From the IMG/VR virus record IMGVR_UViG_3300032291_003216, positions 1 through 64,000 of that record: a stretch of DNA of 64,000 bases. One strand, given 5' to 3'. A program made the translations under genes and the position numbers. Below, one piece after another: positions 3,029 to 39,999 of this stretch. This DNA comes from a virus. Under the pieces are notes generated by a model. That model had not been told where the DNA came from and searched no databases. It worked only from the letters and a program-made list of their open reading frames with translations. Position 1 is the stretch's first letter; every line of letters starts with the position of its first letter.

Positions 3029-3029
3029 C

Positions 3030-3215: not shown

Positions 3216-3223
3216 GGTGTCTC

Positions 3224-3449: not shown

Positions 3450-4436
3450 TCAGTAGAGGAGAAGGCAGGCGTCTGCCTGCGTCGTGGTAGAAGCACCGAC
3501 GACGTATCCAATGGTCGTGCCCGAGGCGTCCCACTTCAAGCGCGACACCGAGTCCTTGATGATGAACATGTTCCGGCTCTGGCCGCACCAGTAGCCGAGC
3601 AGCGTGCCGGACAGGATGTTACAGAATGGGATGCGCACGATGTCGTTGTTCGCCGCGAGCATCACGTTGCTGACCGTGCCGGTAAGCAGGCGGTAGTTCG
3701 TGTTGCCCGCGCCACCGAACATGACCGTGGAGCCGGGAGCAAAGCACGCGAAGTGAGCCGAGCCGTTGAGGTTGGACCCAGCGAGGAAGTTGCCATCGGC
3801 CGCGCCAAGCGACCAGAAGGCATTGTTCGTTGTGGCCAAGCTACCGGACCCACCCATGAAGTAGAGCCGGCCGTCGCTCTCGCAGTTGCCTGTCGCGCTG
3901 GACAACGGGTCAAACAGCGCGCCGAACGTCGCAAATGACGTGAGGCCCGTGCTCGCCTGCGCGTACTGGAGGATGCAACCCTCCTGGCTCTCCCACATCG
4001 CGACGGAGTCGTAGGCGACCGTGGCGAAAGCGCGCGTCGCGCGCCAGTAGCCGCTGAAGCCAGTCGTGAACGGCTGCGAGTTGGTCCAGCTCGTATAGGC
4101 GCCAGCGGCCCGCGCCATGCCGACCTTCACAAGGTTTCCGACACCCGCGGTGTCGGGCGTCAGGAACGTGTACGACGTCGTCGCCGCGTCACCTGCGATG
4201 ATATACTTCATCGAGAGCGCGTTGATCGGCGGCGTGCCGTAGGCGGCGACCGCTGTCACCCCGGTGCCCTCCTGTGCCCACGTCCACGCGCTGCCGGATC
4301 CCGGCGTCCGCGCCGAGCCGTCCGCGTAGGTCGTCGCGATCCCGAGCTGGTACACCGCCTCGTTGGAGAGGTTGATGCTTCCGGCGGTGAACGTCTGAAC
4401 GCCGACGTAACGCCAGTTGAGCGGAGACAGCGCCAT
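3450..4436 (-). CDS. Virion protein, probable tail fibre or tail-surface component
   Basis: 328 aa, rich in aromatic residues, Gly, Ser and Thr, with repeated short beta-like segments; no enzyme motif seen. It is joined to the upstream fibre gene by a one-base TAATG overlap and so is probably translationally coupled to it. The neighbours share fibre-like features, and this may be the distal or receptor-facing part of the same assembly. Function inferred from position and composition. Confidence 0.6.
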   Translation of the reverse strand: MALSPLNWRYVGVQTFTAGSINLSNEAVYQLGIATTYADGSARTPGSGSAWTWAQEGTGVTAVAAYGTPPINALSMKYIIAGDAATTSYTFLTPDTAGVGNLVKVGMARAAGAYTSWTNSQPFTTGFSGYWRATRAFATVAYDSVAMWESQEGCILQYAQASTGLTSFATFGALFDPLSSATGNCESDGRLYFMGGSGSLATTNNAFWSLGAADGNFLAGSNLNGSAHFACFAPGSTVMFGGAGNTNYRLLTGTVSNVMLAANNDIVRIPFCNILSGTLLGYWCGQSRNMFIIKDSVSRLKWDASGTTIGYVVGASTTTQADACLLLY

Positions 4437-8019: not shown

Positions 8020-11000
8020 TTAGATTCCGGTGGTTTCCTTGAGCTTGGTCGGTTCCTCGTACTTGGCGGCCTTCTGCGCCGTCGTGAGCGAGACGTCCAT
8101 GCCCGCTGCGGCCCGCGCCCATCGTAGCAGTTCGCCACGAATGTCGGTGCGCTCAAGCGGCGTTTCTTCCGCTCGCAGCAGGATCTGGTTTAGCTCGCCC
8201 AGCGGGCTGTTCTCAAAGGCCAGCGCCCACGCACCGCCGGGGATGTAGTACCGCTCGTCGCGCGTCTTCGCGATGTCGGGGTACTCCGCCTGAAGGCGGC
8301 GGATGCGCTCGGCGTCCTCCTCGGACAGCATCTCAGGGTTCTCAACGAACGGGTCGGCCTGCGCCGGCACGCGGATGAACGTCGTGCCGTACGCCTCGTC
8401 GAGCTGCGCGCCGATCCACGGGTGGACGCGGAGCACCGTGGCGACGCCTTCTGAGGCGAAGGTCGACACCTTCTTTGGCGCGACGAGGTCTTCGGTCGCG
8501 TCGGCGAGGATGGGCGCGAGAATGGGCGAGCGGGTGATGTCGAACGCGGGCTCGAGCACGCGCTTGTACGACACTTCCCGCATGCCGCCTTCGGTGAGGT
8601 CGACGCCAGGAAGCTGGTCCGCCAGCCCCGCAGACAGCAGGAGGTACGCCGCGGAGATCTGCGTGATGTGCTTCAGACCGCCTTCGACCGCCGACTCCGG
8701 CCAGAACAGCTCCATGTAGGAGTGGTCGTCACCCGCCATGCTGTAGTACATCCGCACCGCCTCCGTGCGCGGGAACGGGACCGCGACACCCGCACGGTCG
8801 CGGAAGTACGACATACGCGACGCCTTGTCGGGCCGCACGACCGCATACTGCGCGAACCGCGAGAGGCCCGCCGCGCCGCCGGCCATCCGGATCTCCTGCA
8901 CGCTGCTGGTCAGCTCGACCATCTTACCGTCCTCGACCGACCGAGCCTGACCGCGGAACAGCATCCGCAGCGCGCGCTTCGCCTCAGGCGGCGGGTTGCC
9001 GCCGTAAGAGTCCTCAAACGCCTTGACGATGGCGTAGTAGGAGTCCTGAAGCTCCGGCGGCATCGACTCAACGTCCAACTCGTACTCGCCGCCCACCTCG
9101 CGGAAGAGGATCTCGCTGAGCAGGTCGGCGCTGCGGTCGCGCGCCCGCTTGATCGCCATCATGCGGTAGGCGCCCCACGGGCTGAACATCAGGTTCACGA
9201 CCTGCTGGTTGGCGTTCTTCTGGAACGCCCAGAACGGGAACAGGATGCCGACGAGCCAATGGCGGTCGGCCGCCGTCAGAGACTGGCTGTAGTCGTAGAG
9301 CGCGTCGACCGTGATGCGCGCCGCCGTGCGGGGGTCGTACCCGGCCTCCATCAGCGTCACCATCGCGCCGAGGCGCTCGCGCTCGCCCCACGCTTCGGCC
9401 GTGTCGCCCACCGTCTGCTGCCAGTCGGCGAGGAAGTTCATGAACCGGCCCTTGGCCGACCCCGTCTTGATCGTGCCGGAGACAGAGTCAGCGAACATCG
9501 TGCCTTCGCGGACGATGGCGTTCTGAAGCTCGCGCGTCGACATGCTGGCGAACACGCCTTCCTCGACCGCGATGTTGCGGACAGAGCGGTAGTCGTAGAT
9601 CTTGCCTCCCGCCCGGAACGCACCGTCGACCCCCTCGAGGATCGGGTTGACCTCGATGCGGTACTTCGCCAGCGAGAACCATTCGCCGATCTTCCCGGCG
9701 GCGATGTCGCCGATCTGCTGGAGGCCCGCGCGACTCCTCTCCAGCGCGACAGGAGAGGCGAGACGCCCACCCGAGAGCCGGCTCGCCGCATCCACGACCT
9801 GCTGCCACGCCGGCAGCACCATCACGTCCTGCAACAGGACGCGCGTGAGCGACATCGCGCCGACGCCGAAGCCCGCCTGCATGCTGATCTGCACGAAGTG
9901 GTCGACGGTGTTCATCATAAAGTACCGCTGGCGCAGGAAGAAGCTGCCGCGGGTCATGCGGGTCTTCATGTAGCGGTACAGCAGCGCGTAGGCGTCAGCG
10001 CCCGTCGCGGCCTCGGCAGGACGGTACGAGGCGCGGGAGAGCGCCTTGGCGATGCGGTCACGCGCCTGACGCGGGATGTACAAGTTCGCGTCAAGGACCG
10101 CGTCCTTCACGAACTCAATGTTCGCGCCGAAACGGTTGGCGGTGAACTGGAGCGCGTTGATGTTGTCGAGGCCCGGCTGCTCGCCAACCGACCAGTTGAT
10201 GAGCGCGTTGCGCGTCTTCGCGTTGACCCCGAGCCCCATGCGCGTCAGCGCATCCTTGCCGAGGCTGGCCGCGCCGAACGAGCCGACGAGAACGGCGACG
10301 CGGCGTGCGGCCTCCTCGTCGTAGATGGCCGCGACGTCCTTGAGCAGCGTGGTGACCGCCTGCTCGCTGCTTCCCTTGAAGACGCCACCGGGCCGCGCCG
10401 TCATCCCGGCGAGGTAGGTGATCGTCTCCACGAGGCGCATCTCGTGCGTTGGGCGGTAGGTGCCCGGCGCGTCGACCGCGTTCCGCAGCGCGCCCGACAG
10501 GGCCACGCCGATGTCCTCTTCCGACCCCTTGGCGAGGCTCATGATCTTGTCCATGGCCTGCACCGCGATCCGCCGGTTCTTCGCCTGATCTGCGGTCGCC
10601 TTGGCGAACTCCTTGCCCTCGGAGTCGAAGCCGTAGTTGGCGAGTCGGATCCCTCGATTGGGACTGTTGATGGCGTCGGCGAGGTCCACGAGCGCCTTCT
10701 TCTGGGCCTCGTCCAGCGCCGAGAGCGTGCGCTGGTACATGCCGATTACTGAGCCCATCGAGTCGTGGCCCGCCGACAGCACCGAGCGCCCATCGCGGCG
10801 ACGAACGTCGACCGCGCCCGAGAGGTAGCGCGAGAGCTGCTTGTTGCCGCCCTTGTCGACCGCGTCACGCAGCAGGCCGATGGTGTCGCCGATGTGCTGC
10901 TCAATGATGCGCTCGCCTGTGTCGAGGGCCTTGCGAACCTCAGGCGACAGCTCGCGGGCACCCTTCTCAAGCGCGACATCGCCACCGATGAGCGACCCAG

Positions 11001-14000
11001 CGACAGCGCGAGCCGCCGTGCGGAGCGCCGCCTTGGTGCCCGTTTCGCCCTTGACCGGCGCGATCACCTGTCGGATGGACTCGACCGCCGTCTCCTCGAC
11101 GACGCGCCCGAGCGCGCCGCGGCCCTTGCCCAGCAGGTCGAGGTCGACTCCCTTCTCCGCCGCCTTCTGCATCTGCGCGCGGGTCGTGTACTTGGCCTGC
11201 GCCTCGGCGAGGTCGCGTACCGTCCACGTCTCCTTGCCGAGGATCTTGACGGGGAACTCGATGGCGACGAGGTTGTCCGTCACCTTCTCGCCGCGCGCCT
11301 TCGCAGCGGCCAGCGCGTCGTCGAACTTCTTCTGGATGTCGGCGAGCTGTGCCTTCGGCAGGCCGCGGCGTACCGCCTCGCGGGAGAGAAGGTCGAGGAT
11401 CTCGACCTGATCGTCCGCCTCACCGACCAGCTCGCGGCGCAGCACCTGCTTCAACGTCGCGCCGGTCTGCTCCGTCACGTCGGAGAACGCACGGTTGAAC
11501 GCAGCGCGGACACCGTCATTGATCGTCACGCCCATGCTCGGGTCAGACGCCAAGCGGTAGATGCGGGCCGCAGCGTCCTTGAGGCCGTCGAAGGCGTTGG
11601 ACAGCGTGCCGTTCGGCGCGGTCCCGTCCGCCACATAGCGCGCGAACGCCTGAGCGAAGAGGTCTTCCGCCTTCAGAACTTCGGCCTCGTCGCCGGTGAA
11701 GTCGCCAAACTCATGGCCGACCGTCACGCCGCGCGTCTTCAGCCACGCGACGACGTCGTCCATGTCCTCCGTCGCCAGCACGTTGCGGCGCAGAACACGA
11801 CCCAAACCGTCGAGAACGGTGCTTGCATCCGCGCCTTCGAGCAGATAGATGATCGAACGACCGTCGTCGAGGAACTCGGTGACGCCCGTGACCTTGCCCG
11901 TGGGGCTGACTGCCTTGAAGAAGGTGGACGGCGGAGCTGCGTCTTCGGCTACCGCGGCTGCTGCTTCAGCGGCCTTCGGCTCGACGCTGGCGTAACGGAG
12001 CGCGTCGTACATGCCGGCGTGCGTGGTCTGGGCGTCCTTGAGCCTGTCCCAGAACCAGTGGTGCATGATCGCGCCGAACACTTCGTCGGGCAGATCCGTG
12101 CCTGGAACGCCCTCGGCGCGCAGTGCGCGGAACCGCCCCATCGCGCGGTCGGCCATCGCCACAGCGATCTTGTCGACGTCCTGCCGCGCCTTGAGATCGC
12201 GCGCGAGATCCGACTCGGGGGTCGCAAGCGTGCCGATGTCGGCGCGGCCGGTGAGCCAACCGTTGAACTCGACCGCGTCCATCGTCGGGCTCTCACCGAA
12301 ACCGAGCAGATGCGAGATGAACGGGGTCTTCGCGTTACCGATTCCGTTCAGCTTGCGGACGGCCGCCTCTACCTTCGCGACGTCTCCGCCAGCCGCGTTG
12401 ATCTCGTCAACGACCGACTGAAGGCTCTGCATGGTAGCCGCGCCGGGCTTCGGCACCGAGAACACGCCGGAATTGCGCAGCGTGTTGTTGCCCCAGATGT
12501 CGCGCAGCTTGGCGACAGTTTCCCACGCATCTGCGTCGAACTCGCCGCGCTCCAGCGCGTCCAGTGCGCGCTGTCCGTCGGGCGAGAACATCCACGCTGC
12601 CATCGCCTCTTCCGGCCGTACCTGACGCTGGCCCTTCTTGCCGAGCACGATGAAGCGGTCATCGAGAGGACCGAGGATGGCCTCGACTCGCGTGGCGTCG
12701 ATGGCGCCAGCACGCTGCGAAGCCACGGTGGGGAGGTACGCCTTCGCCACGTCGCGCACCGTGAGGCGTCCCTCGCGCACCTTGTTGCGCTGCTCCAGAA
12801 TGAATGAGGCCACGTTATCCAGATACTCGGGGCGCGCGTCACCGAGGATCTGAAGGAGCTGCGGGGTCGAGATGAACTGCGTCTTCTTCAACTCATCGAG
12901 GATCGCGGAGGCGCTACGCTGCACTTGGAGCGCGGCCCCCTCGCTGAGCATGTTCGACACCGCCGTGCCGTCGCCCTTGAGCACGTCGTCGAGAGCACGG
13001 ATGAGCGGCGCATCGGACGTCAGCCCGAACGCGCTCTTCACCTTCTCCACGAACTCCGTGAGCCACTGCTTCGCCTTGGCGACGAAGCCCTTGTCGGCCG
13101 TGGCGTAGCGCCCGCTGACGATGCGGCTGGCGTTGACGGCCCAGAACTCCGAGGGGTTGGAATACTGGTAGAACGAGCGCGGCAGGGTGCCGTTGGTGAC
13201 GCCTGTCAGCAGCGCCGCCGAGTCGCCCGTGAGCGCTTTCTCCAGCGCGGGCCGCTGCTCCGGCGTCGCGGTGCCGAGCGTCTTCTGGATCTGCTTCGCC
13301 CACTCGTCCACGACGGCCGTCTGGAGCGCCTCTGGCAGCATCTGCTCGGTGTGGTGGAGGATCTCGTGGGCCGCGGTCAGCTCGCTGCCGCGCTCCTTGA
13401 TGAGCGCCACGACGCGGTCGACCGGCTCGTAGAAGCCCGCGACTTCCTCGCCGATTTGCACGCCGAAGCGCTTCTTCGCCGACTCGGCGGTGAGCACGGC
13501 GATGTTGAGGTCGTCCGCGATGCGCGGGTTCTGCCGGATGAGCCACTCGGCGAGGTCCGCCCCGGCCTCGTCGATGACGCCCGCCGCCTTCGCCTGAAGG
13601 AGCTTGGCGCGCGCATCGTCCGCCCCACGCACCAACTGCGCCTGCGACTTCTTCGCGGCGCGCTCCGCCTTCTGCGTGGCGAGGTCACGCTTCACATCAC
13701 CGATGGTGATGTCGTACTCGATCTGGTCGATGCGGCCGGCGTCGAGGTCTTCTGCGGCCTTCCGCAGGCGCGACTCCGCCGCGACGACGAAGCGCTTCGG
13801 CGTGTCGCCCCACGGCGACTTGGCGCTCTGCGCGAGCGACTCGATGCTCGGAAGGATCGTGGCCGACGCGGCTTCCGGCTTCTGAGCCTTGGCGCGCTTG
13901 CCACCACGAATCTTTGCGCCAGTAGGTTGCGCCTCGACAGCCGCCTGGATACTCGGAGAGGCAGCGGGGGCTACGACAGTAGGAGTCGGAGGAGTCGGGG

Positions 14001-17000
14001 CTTCGGCACGAGCCAAGCGCGCTTCGACGTCGGCGATGGCCTGATCGATGGACTGGCCTACGTGCGCCTTGCCGAACTCCGTGCCCGGCCACTTGACGGC
14101 GAGCCCCGCAAGGTGGCGCTCTCGGATCGCCTTGAGATCCGCGAGGGCCTTCTCATCCGCCGCGCGCTGCGCCTGCACACGAGTCGGCCGCGCCGCTCCG
14201 TCTTCTACGCGCAGCATGTTGGACGACGTCCAGACTTCCTTCCCGTCGTCGTAGCGCACCAGCGCGTCGTTCATGCCGGAGCCCAGCGGCTCCCATCGAA
14301 CAACGACGCCGCTCTTCCCTGCCATCGGGTCGGAGACGCGCGCCCCCTCCCACGTCTCTGCGGTGACAGTAGGAGTCGGAGGAGTCGTGACTTCGGCGGC
14401 ACGCGCGACCGGGGCTGCCTCAGCCGGGGCCTCAACGACCGCCGCCGGGGGCGCCTCAACGACAGGGGCTTCGGCGACCGGAGCAGCCTCAGGCGCCTCG
14501 ACGCGCGGAGCCGCCTCGGTGACTTCACGCTCAGCACGGAGGCCCGCTTCGGTGGCCTCGAAGCGCGGCGCGTTGCGAGCGCTCAGCTCGGTGTCGAGGA
14601 TCTGGGCGTAGCCGCTCAGGTTGCGGCGGGCGCGTTCCACGTCGGCAGCAGGAAGCACGCTGTCGACGAGGTCGTCGATGGCGTTCTCGGCGAGGTCGAG
14701 TTGCTTGCGGATCTCGTCGGTCGAGAACGCGCGCACGCGCTTGCTGATCTCGCCCTGCGCCTCAGAGCGGAGCTTCGCCAGCGACGTCGGAGCCGCCTCT
14801 GCGTAGCGCCCACGAAGCTCGTCCATCGGGAAGAACGGATCGCGCTGGAGCAGCGCCTTGATGACGGTCTGCTGCGCTGCGGTCGGCGGCAGCACGGGGC
14901 GTGCGCTGGCCGGCAGTGCGCCGAAAGACACCGGCACCCGGCGCTCACGGCTTAGGTCCGCGAGGCGCTGCGCGCGGGCCGCCACCAACTCGCGGAGCCC
15001 CTCGATGTCCGTCTCGCCGCGCATGACGCGGAGCGCGCCCTTCCGGAAGTTCTCGGCGACCGTCGCGCGGTTGTCCGTACCGGCGAGTCCGTCGATGCGG
15101 CGCGTGATGCGGTCCAACTCCTCGCTCAGCGAGTCAAGCTCAGACACCAGCGCGTCCTGCTCAATGTCCACGAGCGGGATCTCAGCCGTTTCCGGAAGGT
15201 CGCGGCGCATCGTGAGCAGGTCGGGCGCGCCCTTGATGGCCGGCTCGCCCTTCTGGACGCGTGCCTTCATCAGCGCTTCGGCCTCATCGACACCGGCGAG
15301 CAGCGCCTGCATCGGGTTGCCGGTGACAGACGGCACGTTCGTCTCGGCCGCGCCGACCTTCACGAACACGTTGAAGTCGTCGCCGTCGAGCGGCGCGTCG
15401 ACCATGATGCGCACGTCACCCATCACGATGACGAAGGCGCCCGTCGTGCCGTCCGCGCGCCCGTACGAGGCGATGGCCGCAGTGCTGAACCGGCCCGCCC
15501 GCGCGTCGAGGAGGAGGCGCTTCGCCTGGTCGACGTCCGCGATGTCCATCGGCTTGGCGTTGGGGACCGGCGTCGGCTTCCACTTCAGCGCCTTCTTGCC
15601 CGCGCCGCCGAGCGGCGGGGCCGGGGTCGGCGGCACGCTCTTCGGCGCGATGCCGAAGCGCTCAAGGTCCGCGGCAGAGGCCCGCATGATCTGCGGGAAC
15701 TTCTGCTTGTAGAGCTTGAACGGATCGATGCCCTGACGCTTGGCCTGCGACAGGATGAGCTGGTCGTTGACCGCTGCGAGCTTGTAGGCTTCGTCGAAGT
15801 TCTGCCCCGGCATCGCGCGGCGCAGCTGCTTGAGGAACACCTGACCCGCGGCGGACAGGCGCACCGGCTTCCCCGCGGAATCGAGGACGGCGACATCGTC
15901 GAAGAGGTTGATCGGCTGGATACGGAGCTTGCCCCGCTTCGCGATCTCGTCCAGAAGCGCCGCAGCAGCGTAGGCGCGGGCCTCGTTGTTCTTCTCGATG
16001 GCGGCGGACGCGCGGTCGAGCAGCGCGAGGTCAGCCTGCTTCAGGTCGTCGAGCGACTGCCCGGCGATGTCCTTCATCTTCCGGCCGACCTGCGGCACGA
16101 GGCCGCCCTTCGTCGGGACGTGGAGGAGCTTGCGAACCTCCGTGTAGGCGTCCGTCTTGAACGTGTCGTCCGCCTTCAGCGCGGCCTGGAGCGCCTCACG
16201 GAAGTCCTTCTCGCTGGTGAGGAGCGCCGGAGCAACGCGGCGGGCCGCAGCGGCCAGCTTGTCGATGTCCGCAGCCTTGAGCCCCTTCTCCTTCGCGAAC
16301 GGCGCCAGCACGTTGCGCGTCGCGCCCTCGACGTAGTTGGAGATGTACTCCGCCATCGTCTTCGGGAACGCCTGCGCGTGCGCCTGCCGGGCCGCGGCGA
16401 CGCGGTCGAGGAGCTTCTCGGTGGAGAACAGCTCGTCGTAGTCGGCGTAGGGGACGTCCTTCGTGTCCGTCTTCGCGCTGAGCGTCTCACGACGCATCGA
16501 CGGGTGCTGCCACACGCGACCGGCGGCTTCCTGCTCGGCGGCCTTGATGCGCGAGCCGATGATGGCCGTCAGATCGTCCGACGCCGTGTCCGTCATCGGG
16601 TCGACGAGCTTCATCAGCTCAGCGGCCGAAGCGTCGTAGTTGTTGAGCTGGTCGGCGACGGCGGGCGTGAGGCGGCGAAGCTCGACCTCCGCAACGCGCG
16701 CCGCCTCGAAGTTCTTCGCAGCGCGGGACTCCGCGATGGTCTTCAGAAGCGCCGTGACCTCCGGCGCGATCTTGCGGATGCGGTTGTACTCCACGCCCGC
16801 CTTCACGACCTTGCCCGCCTTGCCGGCGGCGAGGAGCATGTCGGGGAAGATCACGGAGGCCGCGAAGCCAGCAGCGACCGCCGGATAGCGGACAAGCGGC
16901 GTCGCGCCTTCGGAGTGGTCGAGGGCGTACTCCAAGAAGTTCGCGCCCGTCGCGACACCCTCAGACACGGGGCGCCCCTCAAGCGCGGCGACCGTCGCCG

Positions 17001-18120
17001 ACTGCGGGATGTCGATGGCGCGGAGCAGGACGCCGAGCGGCGACTCCTGACGGAAGATCGCCTGGCCCTTGTTGTTGAAGCCGATGATCTCGATGTTCGG
17101 CGAGAGCGCGCCGAAGAACGACGGGGCCTCGCGACCCTCGGTCACGTCGACATCGCCGAGCGTGATCGCCGGCGTCCACTGCCCGACCGTCTTGTAGGCG
17201 ATGACCTCGTTCGTCGCCTGACGGCGCAGGCGCGCCACCTTCTCGACCGCCTGCGGGTCGGATGGCGTGATGCCCGCGCGCTTCTTCAGCTCCTCAAGGC
17301 GGGACTCGATGTACTTCTGCGTGCCGCCGGTCGCCATCGACCGACCGTAGAGGTCGTAGATCTTCGACGCCTGCGGGTCGCTCTTGAGCGCCTCGATGAG
17401 GGCCGCGGAGATGGTGTACCCGTGCTCGCCCGGCTTCGCGATGTCAGGCAGCACAGCCTGCGTGCCCGCCGCGGTGTAGCCAGCCAGCGCACCGGCGGGA
17501 CCGAAGCCCTTGTCCACGCCCGCACGCTTCAGTTCAAGCGTGTCAGGGGCCTCTCCGCGCGTCGCCTTCTCAAAGTCGGTTGAGAGCTTGGTCAGCGCCG
17601 CCTTGCGCTCCTCGACGGGGAGGAAGCCCATGACGCCGCGCTCGCGGGCCGCCTTGGCGATCTCGTCGTAGCTGCGACCCTTCTGCCCCGCCTTGTAGAT
17701 CGAGTCGAGGTCAACGCCCTGCGCCTCGGCGACACGCTTGAAGTCAGCTGCCGACATTCCAAGAGCCGCGGCCGCAGGCGCAATCGCGCCTTCTGCGTTC
17801 AGCGTATTCGCGCGGTCGTAGAACGCCTTGTAGTCGACGACGCGCGCCATGTCGGGCGGCAGTTCCAGCGTGGGCTGCGGCGGAACCTCAACCTTGGGCA
17901 GCGCGACCGGCTCCACCTTCGGAGTTTCTTCGCGCTTGGCCTTGACCACCTTGACCGGAGCAGTTACAGGAAGGGCAGCGGGGGCTACGCTCTTAGAAGG
18001 CGGGGCCATCGGCGCGAACGTGCTGGGCTCGACGGCGGCCGGAGGCGGCGCGACAGGGGCCGCAGCAGCGGCCTTCTTGGCATCCATCGCGGCCTTGAAC
18101 TCAGCGTAGTTGCGCGCCAT
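8020..18120 (-). CDS. Giant internal virion (ejection) polyvalent protein with zincin-like protease motif
   Basis: 3366 aa, the largest gene here. Pro/Ala-rich segments lie near residues 1-60 and again at about 1170-1230, like flexible linkers. A small SH3/KOW-like stretch follows (SGVVVRWEPLGSGMNDALVRYDDG). Residues 1585-1590 are HEILHH, a zinc-metallopeptidase HExxH motif in a helix (ELTAAHEILHHTEQML). Around residues 2950-2985 comes a hydrophobic element, GILFPFWAFQKNANQQV, resembling the conserved C-terminal motif of phage large polyvalent proteins. Its place after the 214- and 1037-aa virion proteins parallels T7 genes 14-15-16, so a DNA-ejection role is likely. No RNA polymerase catalytic motif was recognised. 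The ATG follows CGGAGACGTAG. Confidence 0.8.
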   Translation of the reverse strand: MARNYAEFKAAMDAKKAAAAAPVAPPPAAVEPSTFAPMAPPSKSVAPAALPVTAPVKVVKAKREETPKVEPVALPKVEVPPQPTLELPPDMARVVDYKAFYDRANTLNAEGAIAPAAAALGMSAADFKRVAEAQGVDLDSIYKAGQKGRSYDEIAKAARERGVMGFLPVEERKAALTKLSTDFEKATRGEAPDTLELKRAGVDKGFGPAGALAGYTAAGTQAVLPDIAKPGEHGYTISAALIEALKSDPQASKIYDLYGRSMATGGTQKYIESRLEELKKRAGITPSDPQAVEKVARLRRQATNEVIAYKTVGQWTPAITLGDVDVTEGREAPSFFGALSPNIEIIGFNNKGQAIFRQESPLGVLLRAIDIPQSATVAALEGRPVSEGVATGANFLEYALDHSEGATPLVRYPAVAAGFAASVIFPDMLLAAGKAGKVVKAGVEYNRIRKIAPEVTALLKTIAESRAAKNFEAARVAEVELRRLTPAVADQLNNYDASAAELMKLVDPMTDTASDDLTAIIGSRIKAAEQEAAGRVWQHPSMRRETLSAKTDTKDVPYADYDELFSTEKLLDRVAAARQAHAQAFPKTMAEYISNYVEGATRNVLAPFAKEKGLKAADIDKLAAAARRVAPALLTSEKDFREALQAALKADDTFKTDAYTEVRKLLHVPTKGGLVPQVGRKMKDIAGQSLDDLKQADLALLDRASAAIEKNNEARAYAAAALLDEIAKRGKLRIQPINLFDDVAVLDSAGKPVRLSAAGQVFLKQLRRAMPGQNFDEAYKLAAVNDQLILSQAKRQGIDPFKLYKQKFPQIMRASAADLERFGIAPKSVPPTPAPPLGGAGKKALKWKPTPVPNAKPMDIADVDQAKRLLLDARAGRFSTAAIASYGRADGTTGAFVIVMGDVRIMVDAPLDGDDFNVFVKVGAAETNVPSVTGNPMQALLAGVDEAEALMKARVQKGEPAIKGAPDLLTMRRDLPETAEIPLVDIEQDALVSELDSLSEELDRITRRIDGLAGTDNRATVAENFRKGALRVMRGETDIEGLRELVAARAQRLADLSRERRVPVSFGALPASARPVLPPTAAQQTVIKALLQRDPFFPMDELRGRYAEAAPTSLAKLRSEAQGEISKRVRAFSTDEIRKQLDLAENAIDDLVDSVLPAADVERARRNLSGYAQILDTELSARNAPRFEATEAGLRAEREVTEAAPRVEAPEAAPVAEAPVVEAPPAAVVEAPAEAAPVARAAEVTTPPTPTVTAETWEGARVSDPMAGKSGVVVRWEPLGSGMNDALVRYDDGKEVWTSSNMLRVEDGAARPTRVQAQRAADEKALADLKAIRERHLAGLAVKWPGTEFGKAHVGQSIDQAIADVEARLARAEAPTPPTPTVVAPAASPSIQAAVEAQPTGAKIRGGKRAKAQKPEAASATILPSIESLAQSAKSPWGDTPKRFVVAAESRLRKAAEDLDAGRIDQIEYDITIGDVKRDLATQKAERAAKKSQAQLVRGADDARAKLLQAKAAGVIDEAGADLAEWLIRQNPRIADDLNIAVLTAESAKKRFGVQIGEEVAGFYEPVDRVVALIKERGSELTAAHEILHHTEQMLPEALQTAVVDEWAKQIQKTLGTATPEQRPALEKALTGDSAALLTGVTNGTLPRSFYQYSNPSEFWAVNASRIVSGRYATADKGFVAKAKQWLTEFVEKVKSAFGLTSDAPLIRALDDVLKGDGTAVSNMLSEGAALQVQRSASAILDELKKTQFISTPQLLQILGDARPEYLDNVASFILEQRNKVREGRLTVRDVAKAYLPTVASQRAGAIDATRVEAILGPLDDRFIVLGKKGQRQVRPEEAMAAWMFSPDGQRALDALERGEFDADAWETVAKLRDIWGNNTLRNSGVFSVPKPGAATMQSLQSVVDEINAAGGDVAKVEAAVRKLNGIGNAKTPFISHLLGFGESPTMDAVEFNGWLTGRADIGTLATPESDLARDLKARQDVDKIAVAMADRAMGRFRALRAEGVPGTDLPDEVFGAIMHHWFWDRLKDAQTTHAGMYDALRYASVEPKAAEAAAAVAEDAAPPSTFFKAVSPTGKVTGVTEFLDDGRSIIYLLEGADASTVLDGLGRVLRRNVLATEDMDDVVAWLKTRGVTVGHEFGDFTGDEAEVLKAEDLFAQAFARYVADGTAPNGTLSNAFDGLKDAAARIYRLASDPSMGVTINDGVRAAFNRAFSDVTEQTGATLKQVLRRELVGEADDQVEILDLLSREAVRRGLPKAQLADIQKKFDDALAAAKARGEKVTDNLVAIEFPVKILGKETWTVRDLAEAQAKYTTRAQMQKAAEKGVDLDLLGKGRGALGRVVEETAVESIRQVIAPVKGETGTKAALRTAARAVAGSLIGGDVALEKGARELSPEVRKALDTGERIIEQHIGDTIGLLRDAVDKGGNKQLSRYLSGAVDVRRRDGRSVLSAGHDSMGSVIGMYQRTLSALDEAQKKALVDLADAINSPNRGIRLANYGFDSEGKEFAKATADQAKNRRIAVQAMDKIMSLAKGSEEDIGVALSGALRNAVDAPGTYRPTHEMRLVETITYLAGMTARPGGVFKGSSEQAVTTLLKDVAAIYDEEAARRVAVLVGSFGAASLGKDALTRMGLGVNAKTRNALINWSVGEQPGLDNINALQFTANRFGANIEFVKDAVLDANLYIPRQARDRIAKALSRASYRPAEAATGADAYALLYRYMKTRMTRGSFFLRQRYFMMNTVDHFVQISMQAGFGVGAMSLTRVLLQDVMVLPAWQQVVDAASRLSGGRLASPVALERSRAGLQQIGDIAAGKIGEWFSLAKYRIEVNPILEGVDGAFRAGGKIYDYRSVRNIAVEEGVFASMSTRELQNAIVREGTMFADSVSGTIKTGSAKGRFMNFLADWQQTVGDTAEAWGERERLGAMVTLMEAGYDPRTAARITVDALYDYSQSLTAADRHWLVGILFPFWAFQKNANQQVVNLMFSPWGAYRMMAIKRARDRSADLLSEILFREVGGEYELDVESMPPELQDSYYAIVKAFEDSYGGNPPPEAKRALRMLFRGQARSVEDGKMVELTSSVQEIRMAGGAAGLSRFAQYAVVRPDKASRMSYFRDRAGVAVPFPRTEAVRMYYSMAGDDHSYMELFWPESAVEGGLKHITQISAAYLLLSAGLADQLPGVDLTEGGMREVSYKRVLEPAFDITRSPILAPILADATEDLVAPKKVSTFASEGVATVLRVHPWIGAQLDEAYGTTFIRVPAQADPFVENPEMLSEEDAERIRRLQAEYPDIAKTRDERYYIPGGAWALAFENSPLGELNQILLRAEETPLERTDIRGELLRWARAAAGMDVSLTTAQKAAKYEEPTKLKETTGI

Positions 18121-18221
18121 CTACGTCTCCGATGGCGCAACCCTATCACAACAGACATGCGTGCGCCCGTCCGCAGCGTAGCATATTGCCACGGCGGTCG
18201 GGCGACGGGGGTTGGCGGTGG
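18121..18221 (-). promoter_or_regulatory. Intergenic leader of the giant gene with TGTGATAG motif
   Basis: A 101-bp gap between two minus-strand genes. CTATCACA at 18143-18150 (minus strand TGTGATAG) matches the motif of the 7.5-kb stem-loop and lies about 23 bases before the start codon. No convincing -35 box was found, so this could be an extended -10 promoter or a regulator site. The GGAG ribosome site follows. Confidence 0.4.
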
Positions 18222-18935
18222 CTACTTCTCGGGCAGTCCGTACTCCCTACGCGATGCGGCCAGTGCCGCGACACGCTCAAGGCGCGCCCGCTGCTCTCGC
18301 GCTATCGCAGGAAACTCGCTTCGCGGGAAGTTAGGGTCGCGCTCCAGTTCTTTGACCCGTCTCTGCCCGGCGTTGTAGTCTTCCACCGCCTGATCGTACG
18401 CTTGGTCTACGATCTTCGCTCGTTCTGCTGCTTTGGCCGGAACATTCAGTTCCTCTGGCGAGGGCCGCTGAATCGGCGTTGTCATGGCCGGGCCTACGGG
18501 CGGAAGCGGCGTAGCCCGCTGCTTCGGGTTCATCGTCATCGGCTGAACAGAGGCGAGCGGAGCCGCGGTTCCGTACGCACCCGGAAGCGTCGGTGTTCCA
18601 ATTTCCCGCGCTTTGCGCAACTGCGCGACCCGTCCAACGGCGTCGAGATACGGACGCATGTCGGCGTACTTGTCCGCCGGCGCCGACGGCTCGATCTCCG
18701 GAACGGACGCCGGAATCTCCAGCGCCTCTACCTGTCCCTCTACCGACTTGAGATAGGCGAGACGTCGGTCAGCTTCTGCTTCGTATCCGTCGTCCACGCG
18801 CGCAGGAGCCGTGGCCTTCGGAGCCGAGGTCTGCTTCGGCGGCGCGGCCTTCTGAGGCGCCGGCTGCTTCGGAGCCGACGCTGCGGGAGCGGCGGCCGGC
18901 ACCTTCCCGGCCATCTGGTCTGCGGCTTTCGGCAT
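18222..18935 (-). CDS. Pro/Ala-rich virion-associated protein
   Basis: 237 aa. The first 50 residues are rich in Pro, Ala and Lys (APKQPAPQKAAPPKQ), followed by helical charged regions (EAEADRRLAYLKSVEGQ; AERAKIVDQAYDQAVEDY). It is coupled to the 1037-aa gene by TGATG with GGAG upstream, so the ATG at 18935 is preferred to the GTG at 18938. Sitting between two ejection-type proteins, it is probably an internal virion component or linker; no family recognised. Confidence 0.6.
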   Translation of the reverse strand: MPKAADQMAGKVPAAAPAASAPKQPAPQKAAPPKQTSAPKATAPARVDDGYEAEADRRLAYLKSVEGQVEALEIPASVPEIEPSAPADKYADMRPYLDAVGRVAQLRKAREIGTPTLPGAYGTAAPLASVQPMTMNPKQRATPLPPVGPAMTTPIQRPSPEELNVPAKAAERAKIVDQAYDQAVEDYNAGQRRVKELERDPNFPRSEFPAIAREQRARLERVAALAASRREYGLPEK

Positions 18936-21900
18936 CACGCCACTCCGGTGTTGGTGGTCAAGCGGCGTGCGCCCGTCGCTTGGAGCTTCTTGAAGGTCGG
19001 CAGCGGGGCGCGGCTCGCCTGCGGTTCGACGGTCGGCGTCGAGGGCTTGAACTCAAGCTCCTCCTCTTCCTCGCCATACAGCGTCTTTCGCACAGACGCG
19101 CGCTGCTTTGCCGCTTCTTCTGCTGCCTTGCGCACTTCCTGCGCGACGCCTGCCTGCTTCTGCGCCGTAGTCTTCTGGAACGTCGCCTCACCCATCTGAG
19201 GTCCGGTGACTTCAGCCGCCTCTGCGATAGGTGCTGCGACAGACTTCGGCTCGCGCTTGCCGAACGTGGCGCGCTTGCGGGCCTCGGTGGCGATCCCCGC
19301 CACTTCCTTGTAGTAGTCCTCGCCCGTCTTCGACTGCGCAGCGGCGTACCGCTCTGCGAGGTCAGAGTCAGGCTCACCCGCCTTAATGTTCTTGAGGCCC
19401 TGCATGAGGCGCTCGTCGCGCAGCGCGCCGAAGCCGGCGTAGAACTCGCCGACCGAGCCAGGACGTCCCTTGCCCTTGCGCTCCACGTCCTCGATACCTT
19501 CGCCTGTCGGGAGCGGCTTGGTGAACGCTGTCTGGCGGAACTTGCCGGCGGCCTCCTTTCCCTCTACGGCGGGGCTGACACCGCGCTCAGCCTGCCGCTC
19601 TTCGCGGCGCTGCTTCATCTTCTCCAGCGTGTCGCGAATGTCGGTGCCGACGTTGCGGACGCGGCCCGAGTCGATGACCGTGCTGCCGCGCACCTCGCGC
19701 GCCTCGACGTCGGGCTTCTTCGCCTTGAGCCCAGCGCCAACATCGGCGAGCTGGAACTTCATGGCCTCGTCCTTCGACAGCTCCCTGACGTCTTCGCCCT
19801 CGAGCCGGCTCGTCGCTGCGGTGTACGCGGCCGACCCCTCGGCCTTCCACTCCTTGTCGAAGGTCAGATCGCCGCTCTTCGGCGCGACCTGTCGGACGCC
19901 CTTCCCCTCGAGCGACTCGAACACCGAGCCGTCTGGCATGCGGTAGAAGTCCGACGTCGGCGCCGCGGGCTTCGGAGCCTCGACCTGCGTGAGCTTGCTC
20001 TCGACGGCCTTGTAGGCGGCGTCCGCCGGCTTGAACACGGTCTTGGCAGGCATCTTGCCTTCGGGGGCGCCGGTGACCGTGATGGTGCCGTCCGCCGCCT
20101 TCGTGAACGTGTAGCCTGCGTCGTCCTTGAACGTCGGCAGCGCGGGCGCCGCGGCGACCGGAGCCGGAGCCTCGGGAGCCGGAGCCGCAGGAGGCGCGAC
20201 AGGCGCGACAGGAGCCGCGGGCGTCGAGACACCCGGAGCCTCGATGCGCCGCGTCTCTTCGGGCGTGAGCCCTCCGAGGCCACCGGCCCGACGCTCGGCG
20301 CGGCGCGCGAGCGCGTTCGTCGGCGAAGTCGTGCGACCGCGTGACTCGAGGATCTCGATCTTCGCGCCGGGGCCGAACTTCTGCTGGCCGCCGTTGATGC
20401 TGAACGTGCCGGGACCGCCCTCAATGATGTCGCGGGCGTTGATCTTGTCGCGATAGCCGACGACGCTCATCTCGCCGATGGCCGGAAGCGCGTCGGCGCC
20501 CACGACGTCGATCCCCTTCAGCGTCTTCGGCAGCGCGGCCCGCTCGGCCTCATCTGGCACGCCGGCGTTGTTGATGTCGAAGTCGGATAGGTCGACATCG
20601 GTCATGTAGCGCGACGGCTTGTCACCGTCGTAGACGATGGCATCGTTGAACTTCAGATTGGCCGGAGCCTTGGCTTCGACGGGGTTCCCGGCCTTGTCAT
20701 ACGCCGTGATCGTACCCGCCGATGACTTCACGAAGACGGTGCTGTTGTCCGCGCTGTAGGCAAGCTGGACGCCCGTCGGGTCAATGCCCTGCTCCCGGCG
20801 CGCCTTGGCGTAGTCCTCCGGCGAGAGGACCACGCCGTCCTGCACGGCGTACCGGCCGCCTCCGATGTTGTACTCGGAGAGGACGCGCTCGCGGGCCGCG
20901 GGATCCTGCACCGTCACGCGGACGAGCTGGCCGCTGTTGCGGGAGAAGCCGATGGGCCGACCCGTCCGCATCTGATGCGAGAACACCAGCATGGCGCGCT
21001 CGTCGTTCGGGCCGGGCGCGTAGCCATACACGTTGCCCTCAGCGTCGATGTTCGCCGAGCCGATGCGGAACCCATTGTCCTTCGCCCACTGGCGGAACTC
21101 TTCGTTCGCCATCGTGCGCGCGATCTTCGTACGAAGACCCTCCTGCCCCGGCTTCTGGACGAGGCTCTTGAACCAGTCCGCCTCTTCCGTGAGCCCCTGA
21201 TAGGTCGAGTCAATCTGCGCGACGCGCTCCATTTCCTTGCGGAGATCGGTCGCGTTCATGCCGACACGCGCCTCAACCAGACCCGCGAGCTTCTCGGAGA
21301 GGCGCACCGCCTCCTGCGCCTGCTCGCCGCTCAGCGCCCCGCCGCTGACACGGGACAGCTCAAAGAGACGCCCGCGCGTCTCTTGGATCGCACGATCTGT
21401 TACCTGCTGAGCGCCGAGGACGCTCTGTCCGTGACGGAACAACGCTGCGGTTTCAGCCGCGAGCGTCTCGTTGCCGCCGCTGGATTCCCGAACCATCTGC
21501 GCGGCTTGTTCCGGCGTGATCTGGTCGAGTGACTTGCCGAACATCCGCAGCGACACTTCCTGCATCATACCGGCGATGTCAGGCGACTCGCGACTGGGGT
21601 CGACGCCCGTGAGACGGAGCGTGTTGGTCAGCGACTCCATGCCGTCCGCGATGGAGTTGCCTGCGCCCTGATACGCCGCCAACGCAGGACTGAGACGAGA
21701 ACTGATGACCTGCGTGCTCTGCGTCGCGAGCTTCGTCAGGTTGTCGTCGGCGTTGTTGTTGAGGTCGACGAGAGAGCGTGTCTCGACGCGGCCATTCTGA
21801 GCGAACGTCTCGTTGACCTGCCCGACCATCCGCTGCGTCGAGGCCAGCGTGTCGACACCGGAGGCGAGCTGGTCACGCCACTGCACCAGCGTCGGCGTAT

Positions 21901-22048
21901 TGATGCCCGCGTTGCGGTACTGCGACAGCGTCTTGAGGAGGCCCGCGTACTGCGCGGCCATCTTCGGATCGTTCGTCGGCAGCGTGTCGTCGTAGTTCTC
22001 GGTCGAAAGGAGAACGTCCATGTAGGTCGGCCGGTAAGTCCTTGCCAT
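18935..22048 (-). CDS. Large internal virion protein (T7 gp15-like position)
   Basis: 1037 aa. The N-terminal half is helical and Gln/Leu/Ala rich (TLSQYRNAGINTPTLVQW; QSVLGAQQVTDRAIQET). The middle has beta-like segments (NIDAEGNVYGYAPGPNDER). The C-terminal third has Pro/Ala-rich linkers alternating with short domains (APAPEAPAPVAAAPALPTF) and low-complexity Glu/Lys helices. This matches no enzyme family I can name. Position between the 214-aa and 3366-aa proteins suggests a DNA-ejection or inner-core protein. The ATG follows AAGGAGACGGC. Confidence 0.65.
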   Translation of the reverse strand: MARTYRPTYMDVLLSTENYDDTLPTNDPKMAAQYAGLLKTLSQYRNAGINTPTLVQWRDQLASGVDTLASTQRMVGQVNETFAQNGRVETRSLVDLNNNADDNLTKLATQSTQVISSRLSPALAAYQGAGNSIADGMESLTNTLRLTGVDPSRESPDIAGMMQEVSLRMFGKSLDQITPEQAAQMVRESSGGNETLAAETAALFRHGQSVLGAQQVTDRAIQETRGRLFELSRVSGGALSGEQAQEAVRLSEKLAGLVEARVGMNATDLRKEMERVAQIDSTYQGLTEEADWFKSLVQKPGQEGLRTKIARTMANEEFRQWAKDNGFRIGSANIDAEGNVYGYAPGPNDERAMLVFSHQMRTGRPIGFSRNSGQLVRVTVQDPAARERVLSEYNIGGGRYAVQDGVVLSPEDYAKARREQGIDPTGVQLAYSADNSTVFVKSSAGTITAYDKAGNPVEAKAPANLKFNDAIVYDGDKPSRYMTDVDLSDFDINNAGVPDEAERAALPKTLKGIDVVGADALPAIGEMSVVGYRDKINARDIIEGGPGTFSINGGQQKFGPGAKIEILESRGRTTSPTNALARRAERRAGGLGGLTPEETRRIEAPGVSTPAAPVAPVAPPAAPAPEAPAPVAAAPALPTFKDDAGYTFTKAADGTITVTGAPEGKMPAKTVFKPADAAYKAVESKLTQVEAPKPAAPTSDFYRMPDGSVFESLEGKGVRQVAPKSGDLTFDKEWKAEGSAAYTAATSRLEGEDVRELSKDEAMKFQLADVGAGLKAKKPDVEAREVRGSTVIDSGRVRNVGTDIRDTLEKMKQRREERQAERGVSPAVEGKEAAGKFRQTAFTKPLPTGEGIEDVERKGKGRPGSVGEFYAGFGALRDERLMQGLKNIKAGEPDSDLAERYAAAQSKTGEDYYKEVAGIATEARKRATFGKREPKSVAAPIAEAAEVTGPQMGEATFQKTTAQKQAGVAQEVRKAAEEAAKQRASVRKTLYGEEEEELEFKPSTPTVEPQASRAPLPTFKKLQATGARRLTTNTGVA

Positions 22049-22057
22049 GCCGTCTCC

Positions 22058-22702
22058 TTAGTAGCCGAGCGTCGACATCGCGCGCTGCTGCGGCGACATC
22101 TTGCTGTAGTCCACCTGTCCGCCCGCGCCGGCCGGGACGTTCCCGCGCAGCGTCGTGTCAAGCTCGCCGAGCCGCTGCTTCTGCAACGTCTTCGTAGCCG
22201 CCGCCGCTTCCGCGCCGAAGGTCTGACCCGCCTGACCGATGGCCGCGCCGGTCTGCATCGCCTCGGCGCGCTTGGCGGCGACGCGGTTCATCACGTCGGC
22301 GAAGCGCTGCTGAGCGACCTGCTGCGACAGCGCGTCGACCTGACCCGCGGCTCCAGCGAGCTGCTCCCTCTGCGCCGCGCCCATCTGCCCGAGCGCCGCC
22401 TGCTGCGCGCCTGAGCGACCGAAGCCGCCCATCGCAGCGGCGGAACGACGAAGGTTCGCCTCAGCGCCCGCCGTCTGGGCCTGCAACGCGCGCTGCGTGC
22501 CGGCGAGCATCGTGCGCTTCTCCGCTTCGGAGAGGCCGAGCTTGCCGCGCTGGAGCGCGTCCATGTCCTTCTTCATCTGCTTGCGGTAGGCGATGGCCGC
22601 CGGGTCCACCGCCGAAGCGATGGCCTGACCCGCCGCCCCGACGAGCCCCATCGCGCCTTCGCCCGCAAGCGCGGTGAGAGGTCCGGCAAGGACTGGAAGC
22701 AT
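22058..22702 (-). CDS. Small internal virion protein (T7 gp14-like position)
   Basis: 214 aa. The N-terminus is hydrophobic and Gly/Ala rich (MLPVLAGPLTALAGEGAMGLV), able to enter a membrane. It is followed by Ala/Gln/Arg-rich helices (RALQAQTAGAEANLRRSAAAM) and a Gln-rich stretch. T7 gp14-type proteins of similar size form the outer-membrane part of the ejection channel and have the same layout; the homology is inferred, not proven. It precedes the two larger internal virion proteins. Ribosome site AAGGAG, ATG at 22702. Confidence 0.6.
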   Translation of the reverse strand: MLPVLAGPLTALAGEGAMGLVGAAGQAIASAVDPAAIAYRKQMKKDMDALQRGKLGLSEAEKRTMLAGTQRALQAQTAGAEANLRRSAAAMGGFGRSGAQQAALGQMGAAQREQLAGAAGQVDALSQQVAQQRFADVMNRVAAKRAEAMQTGAAIGQAGQTFGAEAAAATKTLQKQRLGELDTTLRGNVPAGAGGQVDYSKMSPQQRAMSTLGY

Positions 22703-29862: not shown

Positions 29863-30912
29863 TTAGAGCGCGCCGCCGGAGACGCAGCCCTGCGCCGGGG
29901 TCTTCGTGCAGATGATGTTGCCCTGCATCGAGAAGATGGCGGTGACCACGTCCTGATCGCCGACGCGCTCCGAGAACGGGGTGATGGAGGGGGCCTCCAT
30001 CAGCGGCATCTCGATGTAGTCGGTGTTGAGGATGTAGGTGACGCCGTCGTTCGCCACACCGGTGAACAGCGAGCGATTCAGGTCGATGGAGGAGTAGACC
30101 TTCGCCACGCCAAGCTCGAGGCCCAGCATGTTCGTCTTCTCGGTCTTGTCCTCGACGAGCGCGACGCGGACGAGGGAGAGACGGCTGTCCTCAAAGTTGG
30201 TGTAGGTGTCGTCGTCCATCACGACGAGGTCCGGGCCCTTGCCCATGCCGCCCGCGTAGTGGGCGCACTGGCGGTAGGTCTTGCGGAGCACCGGCAGACC
30301 GTCGGTGGCCCACGCGGTGATGTCGTTGTACTGGTTGAAGTGCGAGTACGACGAGGACTTCGCGACGTTCTGCACCACGTCCGCCTGCGCGGTCGTGAGC
30401 TGGAAGTCGAGAAGGCCGTTCGTCACGCCCGTGCCGGAGCCCGCCGCGAACTGGCCGTTGAGGCTCAGGAAGCCGGCGAGGTCGGCGGTCTGGAACACGA
30501 GGCCGCGGGAGGCGCCGGTGAGGAGGAAGGCGTTGAGGTCAGACTTGGCGCCCTCAAGCGTGGTCTGGGGGTACTCCTCGATGAGGCGGATCACAGCGAG
30601 CTTGCCGCTGTTGAAGAGGAGTTCCTTCTTCGGGATGTTGATCGCGGCCACGATGCGGTGCGGCTCGACCTGGAAGCGCTTGGTCTGCTGACGGCGCGTC
30701 ATGTTGAGCAGCTCGTCGCCGACGAAGACGCCGACGCCGCGGGCGGGGGCGCCGCCGGCGAAGGAACGCTCGATGAGGCTGCCGCCCTCAGAGGGCATGC
30801 GCGCCTTGGTCATAAGCGCGTCGAGCAGCTCATTGGAGCGGATGAAGGAGTTGATGAGCGGGCCGCGCAGGTCCGCGAACGTGGTGTTGAGGATTTCGGT
30901 AGAGATCGCCAT
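29863..30912 (-). CDS. Major capsid protein
   Basis: 349 aa. It has the layout of an HK97-fold capsid protein without a long scaffold-like N-arm: N-terminal helix (LNTTFADLRGPLINSFIR), P-domain-like helix after EEYPQTTLEGAKSDLN, an A-domain with YAGGMGKGPDLVVMDDDTY, and a final strand (FSMQGNIICTKTPAQ). The assignment follows from overall pattern and from its neighbours, a decoration-like protein and adaptor. Notably it lies on the minus strand while terminase, portal and scaffold are on the plus strand. The ATG has CGGAG 6 nt upstream, inside a predicted leader stem. Confidence 0.8.
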   Translation of the reverse strand: MAISTEILNTTFADLRGPLINSFIRSNELLDALMTKARMPSEGGSLIERSFAGGAPARGVGVFVGDELLNMTRRQQTKRFQVEPHRIVAAINIPKKELLFNSGKLAVIRLIEEYPQTTLEGAKSDLNAFLLTGASRGLVFQTADLAGFLSLNGQFAAGSGTGVTNGLLDFQLTTAQADVVQNVAKSSSYSHFNQYNDITAWATDGLPVLRKTYRQCAHYAGGMGKGPDLVVMDDDTYTNFEDSRLSLVRVALVEDKTEKTNMLGLELGVAKVYSSIDLNRSLFTGVANDGVTYILNTDYIEMPLMEAPSITPFSERVGDQDVVTAIFSMQGNIICTKTPAQGCVSGGAL

Positions 30913-36432: not shown

Positions 36433-36495
36433 CGGACCGGGCCGCTCCACGTCTTACCTTCCCGGTTTCATCAAACCATGTTAGGAGACTACATC

Positions 36496-36966: not shown

Positions 36967-36975
36967 GAGGTTCGT

Positions 36976-37866: not shown

Positions 37867-37874
37867 GTTACGAT

Positions 37875-37905: not shown

Positions 37906-37955
37906 CTCCATTCGACTGAGGCGGCGTGTCGGGGGTCCAATCCCCCCGGCTCGCT

Positions 37956-38156: not shown

Positions 38157-38326
38157 CGCGAGCCGACCTTGACCTTCACCTTGACGGTCGGCTTCTGGAT
38201 GAGGCCCGAAATGTCCGGCAGCTTCTTGCCGCGGGGGTTGAGGCCCGCCTTGCCGCCGTCCTCGTCATCCTTCTCCGCCTTCGCCTTGTTCTTCATGGCG
38301 TTGAGCTTGGTGTAGTAGTCTTCCAT
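38153..38326 (-). CDS. 57-aa basic small protein
   Basis: Starts MEDYYTKLNAMKNKAKAEKD and ends KVKVKVGSR. The start overlaps the transglycosylase stop as TGATG. It contains a Lys-rich helix and GLNPRGKKLPDISGL. Too short for common ORF limits but well supported by overlap and codon use. Function unknown. Confidence 0.65.
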   Translation of the reverse strand: MEDYYTKLNAMKNKAKAEKDDEDGGKAGLNPRGKKLPDISGLIQKPTVKVKVKVGSR

Positions 38327-39000
38327 CACAGCACCTTGTTGGCGAGAAGGGTTTCGCGGAACGTGTTCGTAGGATTCACGCGGTCCTGCGCGACTTCCTC
38401 GCGCGTGGTGCCGGTCAGGAGGTTGTACGCCTGGTCGGCCATAGTGGCGTAGGCGCGCGTCCGGTCGCCGAACTTTGGGCTCGGGTACGCCTGACCGTAG
38501 GAGCGGACAATCGTCTCGCCGGAGTGGTAGGCGGCACCCAGCGCGGCAGGGTCTTCGCCGAACTTCTTCTTGAGGTCGCCGAGATACTGCGCGGCCCCGC
38601 GGATGCTGTCCTTGGGATCGTCCACGTTGATCTTGTACTTGTCGCGGATGTTGTCGGTGATCTGCGCGAGGCCCTTCGCGCCGTCCTCCGACTGCACGTA
38701 CCGGCCCTGCGTCGGGTTGCCGCGCTGCTCGACCATGACGATGGCCTTGAGCAGCTTCGGGTCGACGCCCGACGCGGCGGCGTACTTCTCAAAGTACTCC
38801 TCGTAGGGCTGCACATGGAGTTTGTAGCTCCGCATGAGGTGCTGCTCCTGCGTGTCGGGCTTGAACGAGCCGAGGTCTGTGCGGATGCGCTCCGCAGCCC
38901 GTGCCTCGGCGGCCCGCATGGCGAGCGTGCCGGCCTCCCAGCTCATCGGCCCGCCCTCCGAGTAGATCGGAGAGAACTTCTCCTTCTTCGGAGCCGCCAC
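38326..39000 (-). CDS. Lytic transglycosylase (SLT domain)
   Basis: 224 aa. Residues about 75-190 are an SLT/goose-lysozyme-like domain. The sequence LLKAIVMVEQRGNPTQG carries the probable catalytic Glu, followed by SEDGAKGLAQITDNI, the GLMQ-like motif (GLAQI), and AAYHSGETIVRSYGQ, the AYNAG-like motif (AYHSG). It would cleave peptidoglycan glycan strands. It is coded away from the endolysin and beside head genes, as virion-associated lysins often are. The GTG start lies one base after the upstream TGA. A signal peptide is absent. Confidence 0.85.
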   Translation of the reverse strand: MAAPKKEKFSPIYSEGGPMSWEAGTLAMRAAEARAAERIRTDLGSFKPDTQEQHLMRSYKLHVQPYEEYFEKYAAASGVDPKLLKAIVMVEQRGNPTQGRYVQSEDGAKGLAQITDNIRDKYKINVDDPKDSIRGAAQYLGDLKKKFGEDPAALGAAYHSGETIVRSYGQAYPSPKFGDRTRAYATMADQAYNLLTGTTREEVAQDRVNPTNTFRETLLANKVL

Positions 39001-39988: not shown

Positions 39989-39999
39989 TGCGTGTTCTG

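Follow-up and report, generated by a model that had tools for sequence, protein, structure and literature searches.

A cysteine-free giant phage protein with a predicted zincin in an exchangeable central region, probably an ejection protein

We analysed a window that covers the first 64,000 bases of a virus record 70,206 bases long. It encodes a protein of 3366 amino acids, referred to here as the giant. The results suggest that the giant is probably a polyvalent ejection protein with swappable cargo that includes a zincin. It would be packed in the phage head alongside the 214-, 1037- and 238-aa products of the neighbouring genes, and, as infection begins, be threaded at least partly unfolded into the host by way of the tail. 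To judge from their conservation, the two ends (residues 1-822 and 1996-3366) would serve packaging and threading, and the middle region would carry exchangeable enzyme cargo. Here, the cargo would include a predicted zincin metallopeptidase acting in the infected cell, either as an effector or by freeing cargo domains. The features on which this reading rests are listed in Table 1.

Table 1. Position of the giant gene, its parts and its neighbours in the window
Feature	Position	Strand	Basis
3366-aa giant protein gene	8020..18120	-	intact ORF; orthologues of 2183-4206 aa across 37 IMG/VR loci
Conserved N-terminal part, residues 1-822	15655..18120	-	47% identity to L001
Variable central cargo region, residues 823-1995, unalignable to L001	12136..15654	-	
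Cargo zincin metallopeptidase domain (predicted), residues 1452-1727	12940..13767	-	profile limits; AlphaFold2; Foldseek
HEILHH, predicted zinc-binding/catalytic motif, residues 1585-1590	13351..13368	-	invariant in 72 sequences
SEFWAV, residues 1657-1662, predicted third zinc ligand Glu1658	13135..13152	-	invariant in 72 sequences; second model helix
Domain common to the MW202675 898-aa protein, residues 1764-2044	11989..12831	-	29% identity, E 3e-19
Conserved C-terminal part, residues 1996-3366	8023..12135	-	
Decayed second zincin site DGLGR, residues 2104-2108	11797..11811	-	HEVAH/HEAAH in four nearest relatives
GILFPFWAFQKNANQ, family signature, residues 2958-2972	9205..9249	-	
238-aa cysteine-free gene, predicted ejection block	18222..18938	-	equivalents beside the giant in L001, L015, L014, L010
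1037-aa cysteine-free gene, predicted ejection block	18935..22048	-	
214-aa cysteine-free gene, predicted ejection block	22058..22702	-	
Major capsid protein	29863..30912	-	phrog_9953, E 6e-18; 89-92% identical in relatives
Stand-alone 224-aa transglycosylase protein	38326..39000	-	phrog_342, E 3e-19; 0 Cys

The giant gene and its neighbourhood

The ORF of the giant starts with ATG and contains no internal stop, and its codon-position GC (0.69/0.47/0.88) is what would be expected of genuine coding DNA with 67% GC. This composition, together with orthologues that keep the same neighbours, indicates that the ORF is a genuine gene. The initial annotation had reported the intact ORF, the HEILHH motif and the GILFPFWAFQKNANQ element within it, and the 1037- and 214-aa genes, all of which were recovered at the positions claimed. 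It had also described a three-part set, whereas the block consists of four genes, the 238-aa gene that separates the giant from the 1037-aa gene having been overlooked. The gene adjoining the giant at this position encodes 276, 248, 334 and 306 aa in the relatives L001, L015, L014 and L010, respectively. In the order of transcription, the major capsid protein is followed by products of 180, 495, 709, 536, 259, 214, 1037, 238 and 3366 aa; the giant is thus the final gene of the structural block, and this gene order is retained in relatives. No terminase large subunit was recognised among the window ORFs scanned, and four large ORFs of the window (33935-35314, 36481-37911, 39002-40087 and 3450-4436) had no Pfam or PHROG match. 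The nearest capsid protein of a cultured phage was that of Bradyrhizobium phage ppBjS10J-1 (26%).

Conserved ends and an exchangeable central region

Scanning viral contigs with the whole giant retrieved a single relative, L001 (a 70,497-base contig), and scans using C-terminal alignments retrieved 37 loci in IMG/VR. Complete giants in this family span 2183-4190 aa; the longest of those truncated at the 5' end has 4206 aa. The capsid protein of L001 is 92% identical to that of the window, and the two giants could be aligned only at window residues 1-822 and 1996-3365, with 47% identity. Within the same phages, the giant diverges far faster than the capsid protein (47-53% where alignable vs 89-92%). 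The conserved N- and C-terminal chassis matched no Pfam or PHROG model, and a C-terminal pattern scan of 84,980 prokaryote genomes found no relatives of the family.

In the C-terminal part, P-F-W-A-F-Q-K-N (within FPFWAFQKNA) was invariant across the 33-row family alignment, which identifies GILFPFWAFQKNANQ as a signature of the family. This element and the HEILHH motif had initially been read as marks of a large polyvalent protein, with alignment to LPD domains as the proposed check. The reading as a polyvalent protein was supported, and so, as far as can be predicted, was that of a true zincin domain (see below), but the PFWAFQ region of 33 family members matched no Pfam LPD model, even at E up to 5. 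The same search gave no support to the idea that this region is LPD38-like, and no LPD or PolyVal Pfam domain was found in the window giant itself.

The central regions differ in content from one relative to the next. The window cargo consists of the zincin, followed by the domain at residues 1764-2044. The giant of L001 (10001-19861, P0004) has a zincin of another clade at ~1194, a C5 cytosine methylase at 1444-1602 (E 2e-21) and an ART-PolyVal ADP-ribosyltransferase at 1791-1962 (E 1e-23), and that of L010 has ART-PolyVal only. The giants of L015 and L014 have the window-type zincin, at 53% and 49% identity. Among 31 members, the cargo included GNAT acetyltransferases (12), ART-PolyVal (5), Rho_N (2), PBECR5 (1) and C5 methylase (1). 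One enzyme domain was recognised in the window giant itself, and unrelated enzymes are joined elsewhere in the family. This comparison shows the middle of the giant to be an exchangeable cargo bay that is swapped among near relatives.

The domain at residues 1764-2044 has a GIGxAK...TMDA-like motif that also occurs at L008 19869-22565 (the 898-aa protein, MW202675); that protein has an InPase domain at its end and is annotated as 'type I restriction enzyme'. The giants of L105, L110 and L107 have two or three zincin domains per polypeptide, partly of different clades.

The HEILHH motif in a predicted zincin fold

The giant contains just 23 His, and HExxH arose in 1.3% of 2000 shuffles and HExxHH in none. 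A zincin domain of ~275 aa was encoded in 284 IMG/VR stretches. The scan demanded just one of the motifs HE[ILMFV]LH and SE[FY]WA; both were present in all of the best 80 of the 284 stretches. In 72 aligned zincin homologues, H, E, L and H of the first motif and the distal S-E-x-W-A were invariant at a mean column identity of ~32%, indicating selection on the metal site.

The AlphaFold2 model of the domain had a mean pLDDT of 84, with values >90 through the core. In this model (model numbering), predicted strands 112-116, 135-138 and 143-147 precede the HExxH helix 155-167, and Glu1658 lies on a later helix, 229-248. Three strands, an HExxH helix and a later Glu helix are the core given for polyvalent-type zincins (PMC5512222). 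Foldseek returned weak matches to anthrax lethal factor, IrrE, selecase, collagenases and jannalysin, all of them zincins; against the PDB, the best E was 0.07 overall and 0.11 for anthrax lethal factor, none being individually significant. An hmmsearch of the domain against the PDB gave no significant match, and no Pfam model covers the window zincin clade. The 72 aligned homologues, the predicted core fold and the third ligand support the prediction that HEILHH is a real zincin site, with zinc ligands His1585, His1589 and Glu1658 and catalytic base Glu1586. As far as AlphaFold2 and Foldseek can predict, the motif lies inside a zincin fold; a position outside one was the outcome that the initial annotation had named as fatal to its claim.

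The domain first matched proteins of ~5000 aa in three Erwinia phages, Pavtok, PEp14 and Stean (36%, E 5e-47), and a tblastn search with the L015 zincin against 50,697 phage records retrieved only these three again. A sister zincin clade, A16, was found in 15 family members; the window zincin profile matched A16 over the HExxH and Glu helices with 95% probability (hhalign). A16 in turn matched residues 2221-2321 of the N4 virion RNA polymerase (E 1e-10 with an 11-sequence set; 95% by hhalign). A SHOCT helical-hairpin model matched 11 of the 72 zincin domains in the N-terminal helices before the core (best E 4e-5); this hairpin is possibly an oligomerisation element.

A decayed second site in the C-terminal half

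At residues 2101-2108, the window giant reads TVLDGLGR, where L001 and L010 have TVLHEVAH, L015 has TVLHEAAH and L014 has TILHEAAH. This resident HExxH is kept, with AEExFAxAFExY, in 11 members and lost in 26 of the 37 (the window counted), including most of the distant relatives; the distal AE(E/D) is kept by most of the 26. In an IQ-TREE analysis of the C-terminal half, built with the resident site excluded, the window fell in a trio with two intact members (99/99) and inside a clade of seven, six of them intact (100/100). This nesting among intact members indicates that its site was lost recently and separately. On the whole tree, the state of the resident site changed at least 3-5 times. 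The intact resident domains (A15) matched the cargo zincin by hhalign (73%, E 3e-5), and the resident domain of L001 gave a sub-threshold ATLF match (E 0.12). The model of the corresponding window region (ZD2) was mostly helical, with no zincin among its Foldseek matches. On the strength of the intact orthologues, we infer that the resident domain of the C-terminal half was once a zincin.

No recognisable zincin was found in 9 of the 28 complete family members, which indicates that neither zincin site is essential to the chassis and that protease activity is optional. The same count ruled out the idea that a zincin of some kind is kept throughout the family. Compensation by the cargo zincin for loss of the resident site was dropped as undemonstrable: a cargo zincin was present in 11 of 20 members with a lost site and in 3 of 8 with an intact one, a comparison that holds just 2-3 independent pairs among complete members.

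A gene block without cysteine

The giant and the 238-, 1037- and 214-aa products (8020-22702) contain no Cys in 4855 aa, where 37-49 would be expected from the other genes. Cys reappears further up the operon, with 2, 6, 5 and 5 residues in the next four genes. The block is nearly Cys-free in L001, L015, L014 and L010 as well, and the genes beyond it contain Cys again in L001 and L015, the two where this was examined. Over the family, the giants have 39 Cys per 105,595 aa, and zincin-bearing giants at large have 31 per 193,311 aa.

This composition was compared with that of phage proteins regarded as ejected. Across T7 gp14-16 and gp6.7, N4 gp50 and P22 gp7/16/20, 7158 aa in all, there are 2 Cys, compared with 0.75% Cys in the other proteins of these phages, and SP6 gp35-37 have none in 2487 aa. 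Pooled, the ejected proteins of T7, N4, P22 and SP6 contain 2 Cys in 9,645 aa vs 0.75-0.97% in the phages' other proteins. Exceptions are the epsilon15 internal proteins (7 Cys in 2728 aa, 0.26%) and P1 DarB, regarded as an injected protein (9 Cys in 2255 aa, 0.4%). Absence of Cys is not specific to ejection, as some non-ejected virion proteins of N4 and P22 also lack it. Among the papers searched, none was found to state such a rule for ejection proteins. The cysteine-free block is independent support for ejection, not proof.

The initial annotation had read the set as an inner core with an ejection-type protein. Gene order and the lack of Cys across the block make such a module probable; no homology to T7 gp14/15/16 was found. 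At somewhat less than an even chance, the family can be read more broadly as a chassis that keeps its ends and swaps its cargo, in which the resident zincin has repeatedly been lost or become a pseudo-protease, other zincins have been imported, and threading selects against Cys. If tail-threaded proteins are indeed so selected, which forms part of this tentative reading, a cysteine-free gene block could be read as the signature of an ejection module.

Function of the zincin and alternative explanations

The cargo zincin would most likely act inside the infected cell, a view favoured by the third of complete relatives in which the chassis does without a zincin. It would not be a maturation enzyme required by the family, given that the resident site is lost here and that 9 of 28 have no zincin at all. 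A different role, which we regard as possible though short of probable, is that of an autoprotease with the giant as its main substrate, which would release the cargo domains either within the head or once ejection has taken place. Autoprocessing was proposed for polyvalent proteins generally by Iyer et al. and P1 DdrB is cut prior to packaging (PMC5512222), and the zincin here sits between the cargo and the conserved C-terminal half, as such a role would favour. The zincin-less complete members show, however, that the chassis needs none, resident loss is not demonstrably tied to the presence of a cargo zincin, and the N4 virion RNA polymerase is packaged uncut although it carries a zincin (PMC5512222). 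It is improbable that the fold is a catalytically dead binding or structural module: the resident domain of the same giant did go that way (DGLGR), but the invariance of H, E, H and the distal E over 72 sequences points to selection on the metal site of the cargo zincin.

Delivery itself has two competitors. Long, Cys-free proteins can be tape measures, as lambda gpH (853 aa) and P1 Sit (1140 aa), both with no Cys, illustrate, and the giant could in principle be a structural, tape-measure-like tail protein that never reaches the cytoplasm. This is unlikely, since the C5 DNA methylase, ADP-ribosyltransferase, GNAT and RNase-like cargo of relatives makes sense only in the cytoplasm, and a family length of 2183 to >4200 aa is unsuited to a ruler. 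That the giant is synthesised late in the cell without entering the virion is very improbable, as its gene lies within the structural block and within the cysteine-free block, and gp69 of podovirus JC1, a DarB-like giant of 4515 aa, gave 51 unique peptides in mass spectrometry of purified virions (PMC9144972). P1 DarB is likewise present in the P1 virion (PMC9024508).

From a single motif, the analysis leads to 37 relatives from uncultured phages that share a conserved chassis and carry exchangeable enzymes. With such a chassis and cargo bay, nature would have a design for bringing large proteins into bacteria, and inspecting the cargo bay would offer a route to new phage effectors. Absence of Cys, a rule that here holds in T7, SP6, N4 and P22, could serve as a cheap, testable predictor of tail-threaded phage proteins. 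Decay of the resident zincin and the existence of zincin-less members argue against obligatory self-processing in this giant family.

Comparison with known systems

The block shares with T7 gp14-gp15-gp16 the small-medium-large order, the late structural position and the near absence of Cys. The T7 transglycosylase resides on gp16, whereas that of the window is the separate 224-aa protein, and no Pfam or PHROG match to a transglycosylase domain was found in the giant; the block also has the additional 238-aa gene. Outside the zincin, no family member showed sequence homology to T7 gp14/15/16 or N4 gp50-52, no known ejection protein was matched by the parts assigned to delivery, and the likeness to gp14-15-16 drawn in the initial annotation does not extend to sequence.

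Polyvalent proteins (PMC5512222) are, like the giant, large multidomain phage proteins in which a zincin metallopeptidase is a common domain, and family relatives of the giant carry ART-PolyVal, C5 DNA methylase, GNAT and PBECR5 cargo, classes of the sort described for them. The giant differs in that its family chassis has no Pfam or PHROG model and its resident zincin-like site is decayed. In the predicted core fold and ligand arrangement, the cargo zincin resembles anthrax lethal factor-type (M34) and other zincins, with sequence and structure scores that are not significant. The ~5000-aa DarB-like proteins of pavtokviruses (Pavtok gp27, PEp14 gp27 and Stean) have a zincin of the same clade (36-38% over ~285 aa), with HEILHHTE and SE[YF]WAVNA in common, and contain no Cys, as does the giant. 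The giant, however, lacks their methylase, SNF2 helicase and transglycosylase; nor did Pfam or PHROGs match in it the adenine methylase and SNF2 helicase of the DarB antirestriction protein. Profile searches found no homology between the C-terminal half or ends of the giant and the pavtokvirus or N4 C-termini.

The N4 virion RNA polymerase is built of an N-terminal part for injection, an enzyme in the centre and, for encapsidation, 1400 C-terminal residues that open with a zincin (PMC5512222). N4 gp50, with gp51 and gp52, parallels the giant as a Cys-free giant closing a Cys-free gene block, with a conserved C-terminal part of ~1400 aa and, near the start of that part, a zincin homologous to that of the window via A16. 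The giant differs in having no T7-like RNA polymerase domain (Pfam, PHROGs). By sequence, the window block belongs to neither the T7 nor the N4 family, yet it resembles both systems in layout, and the N4 virion RNA polymerase is the best working model for the giant.
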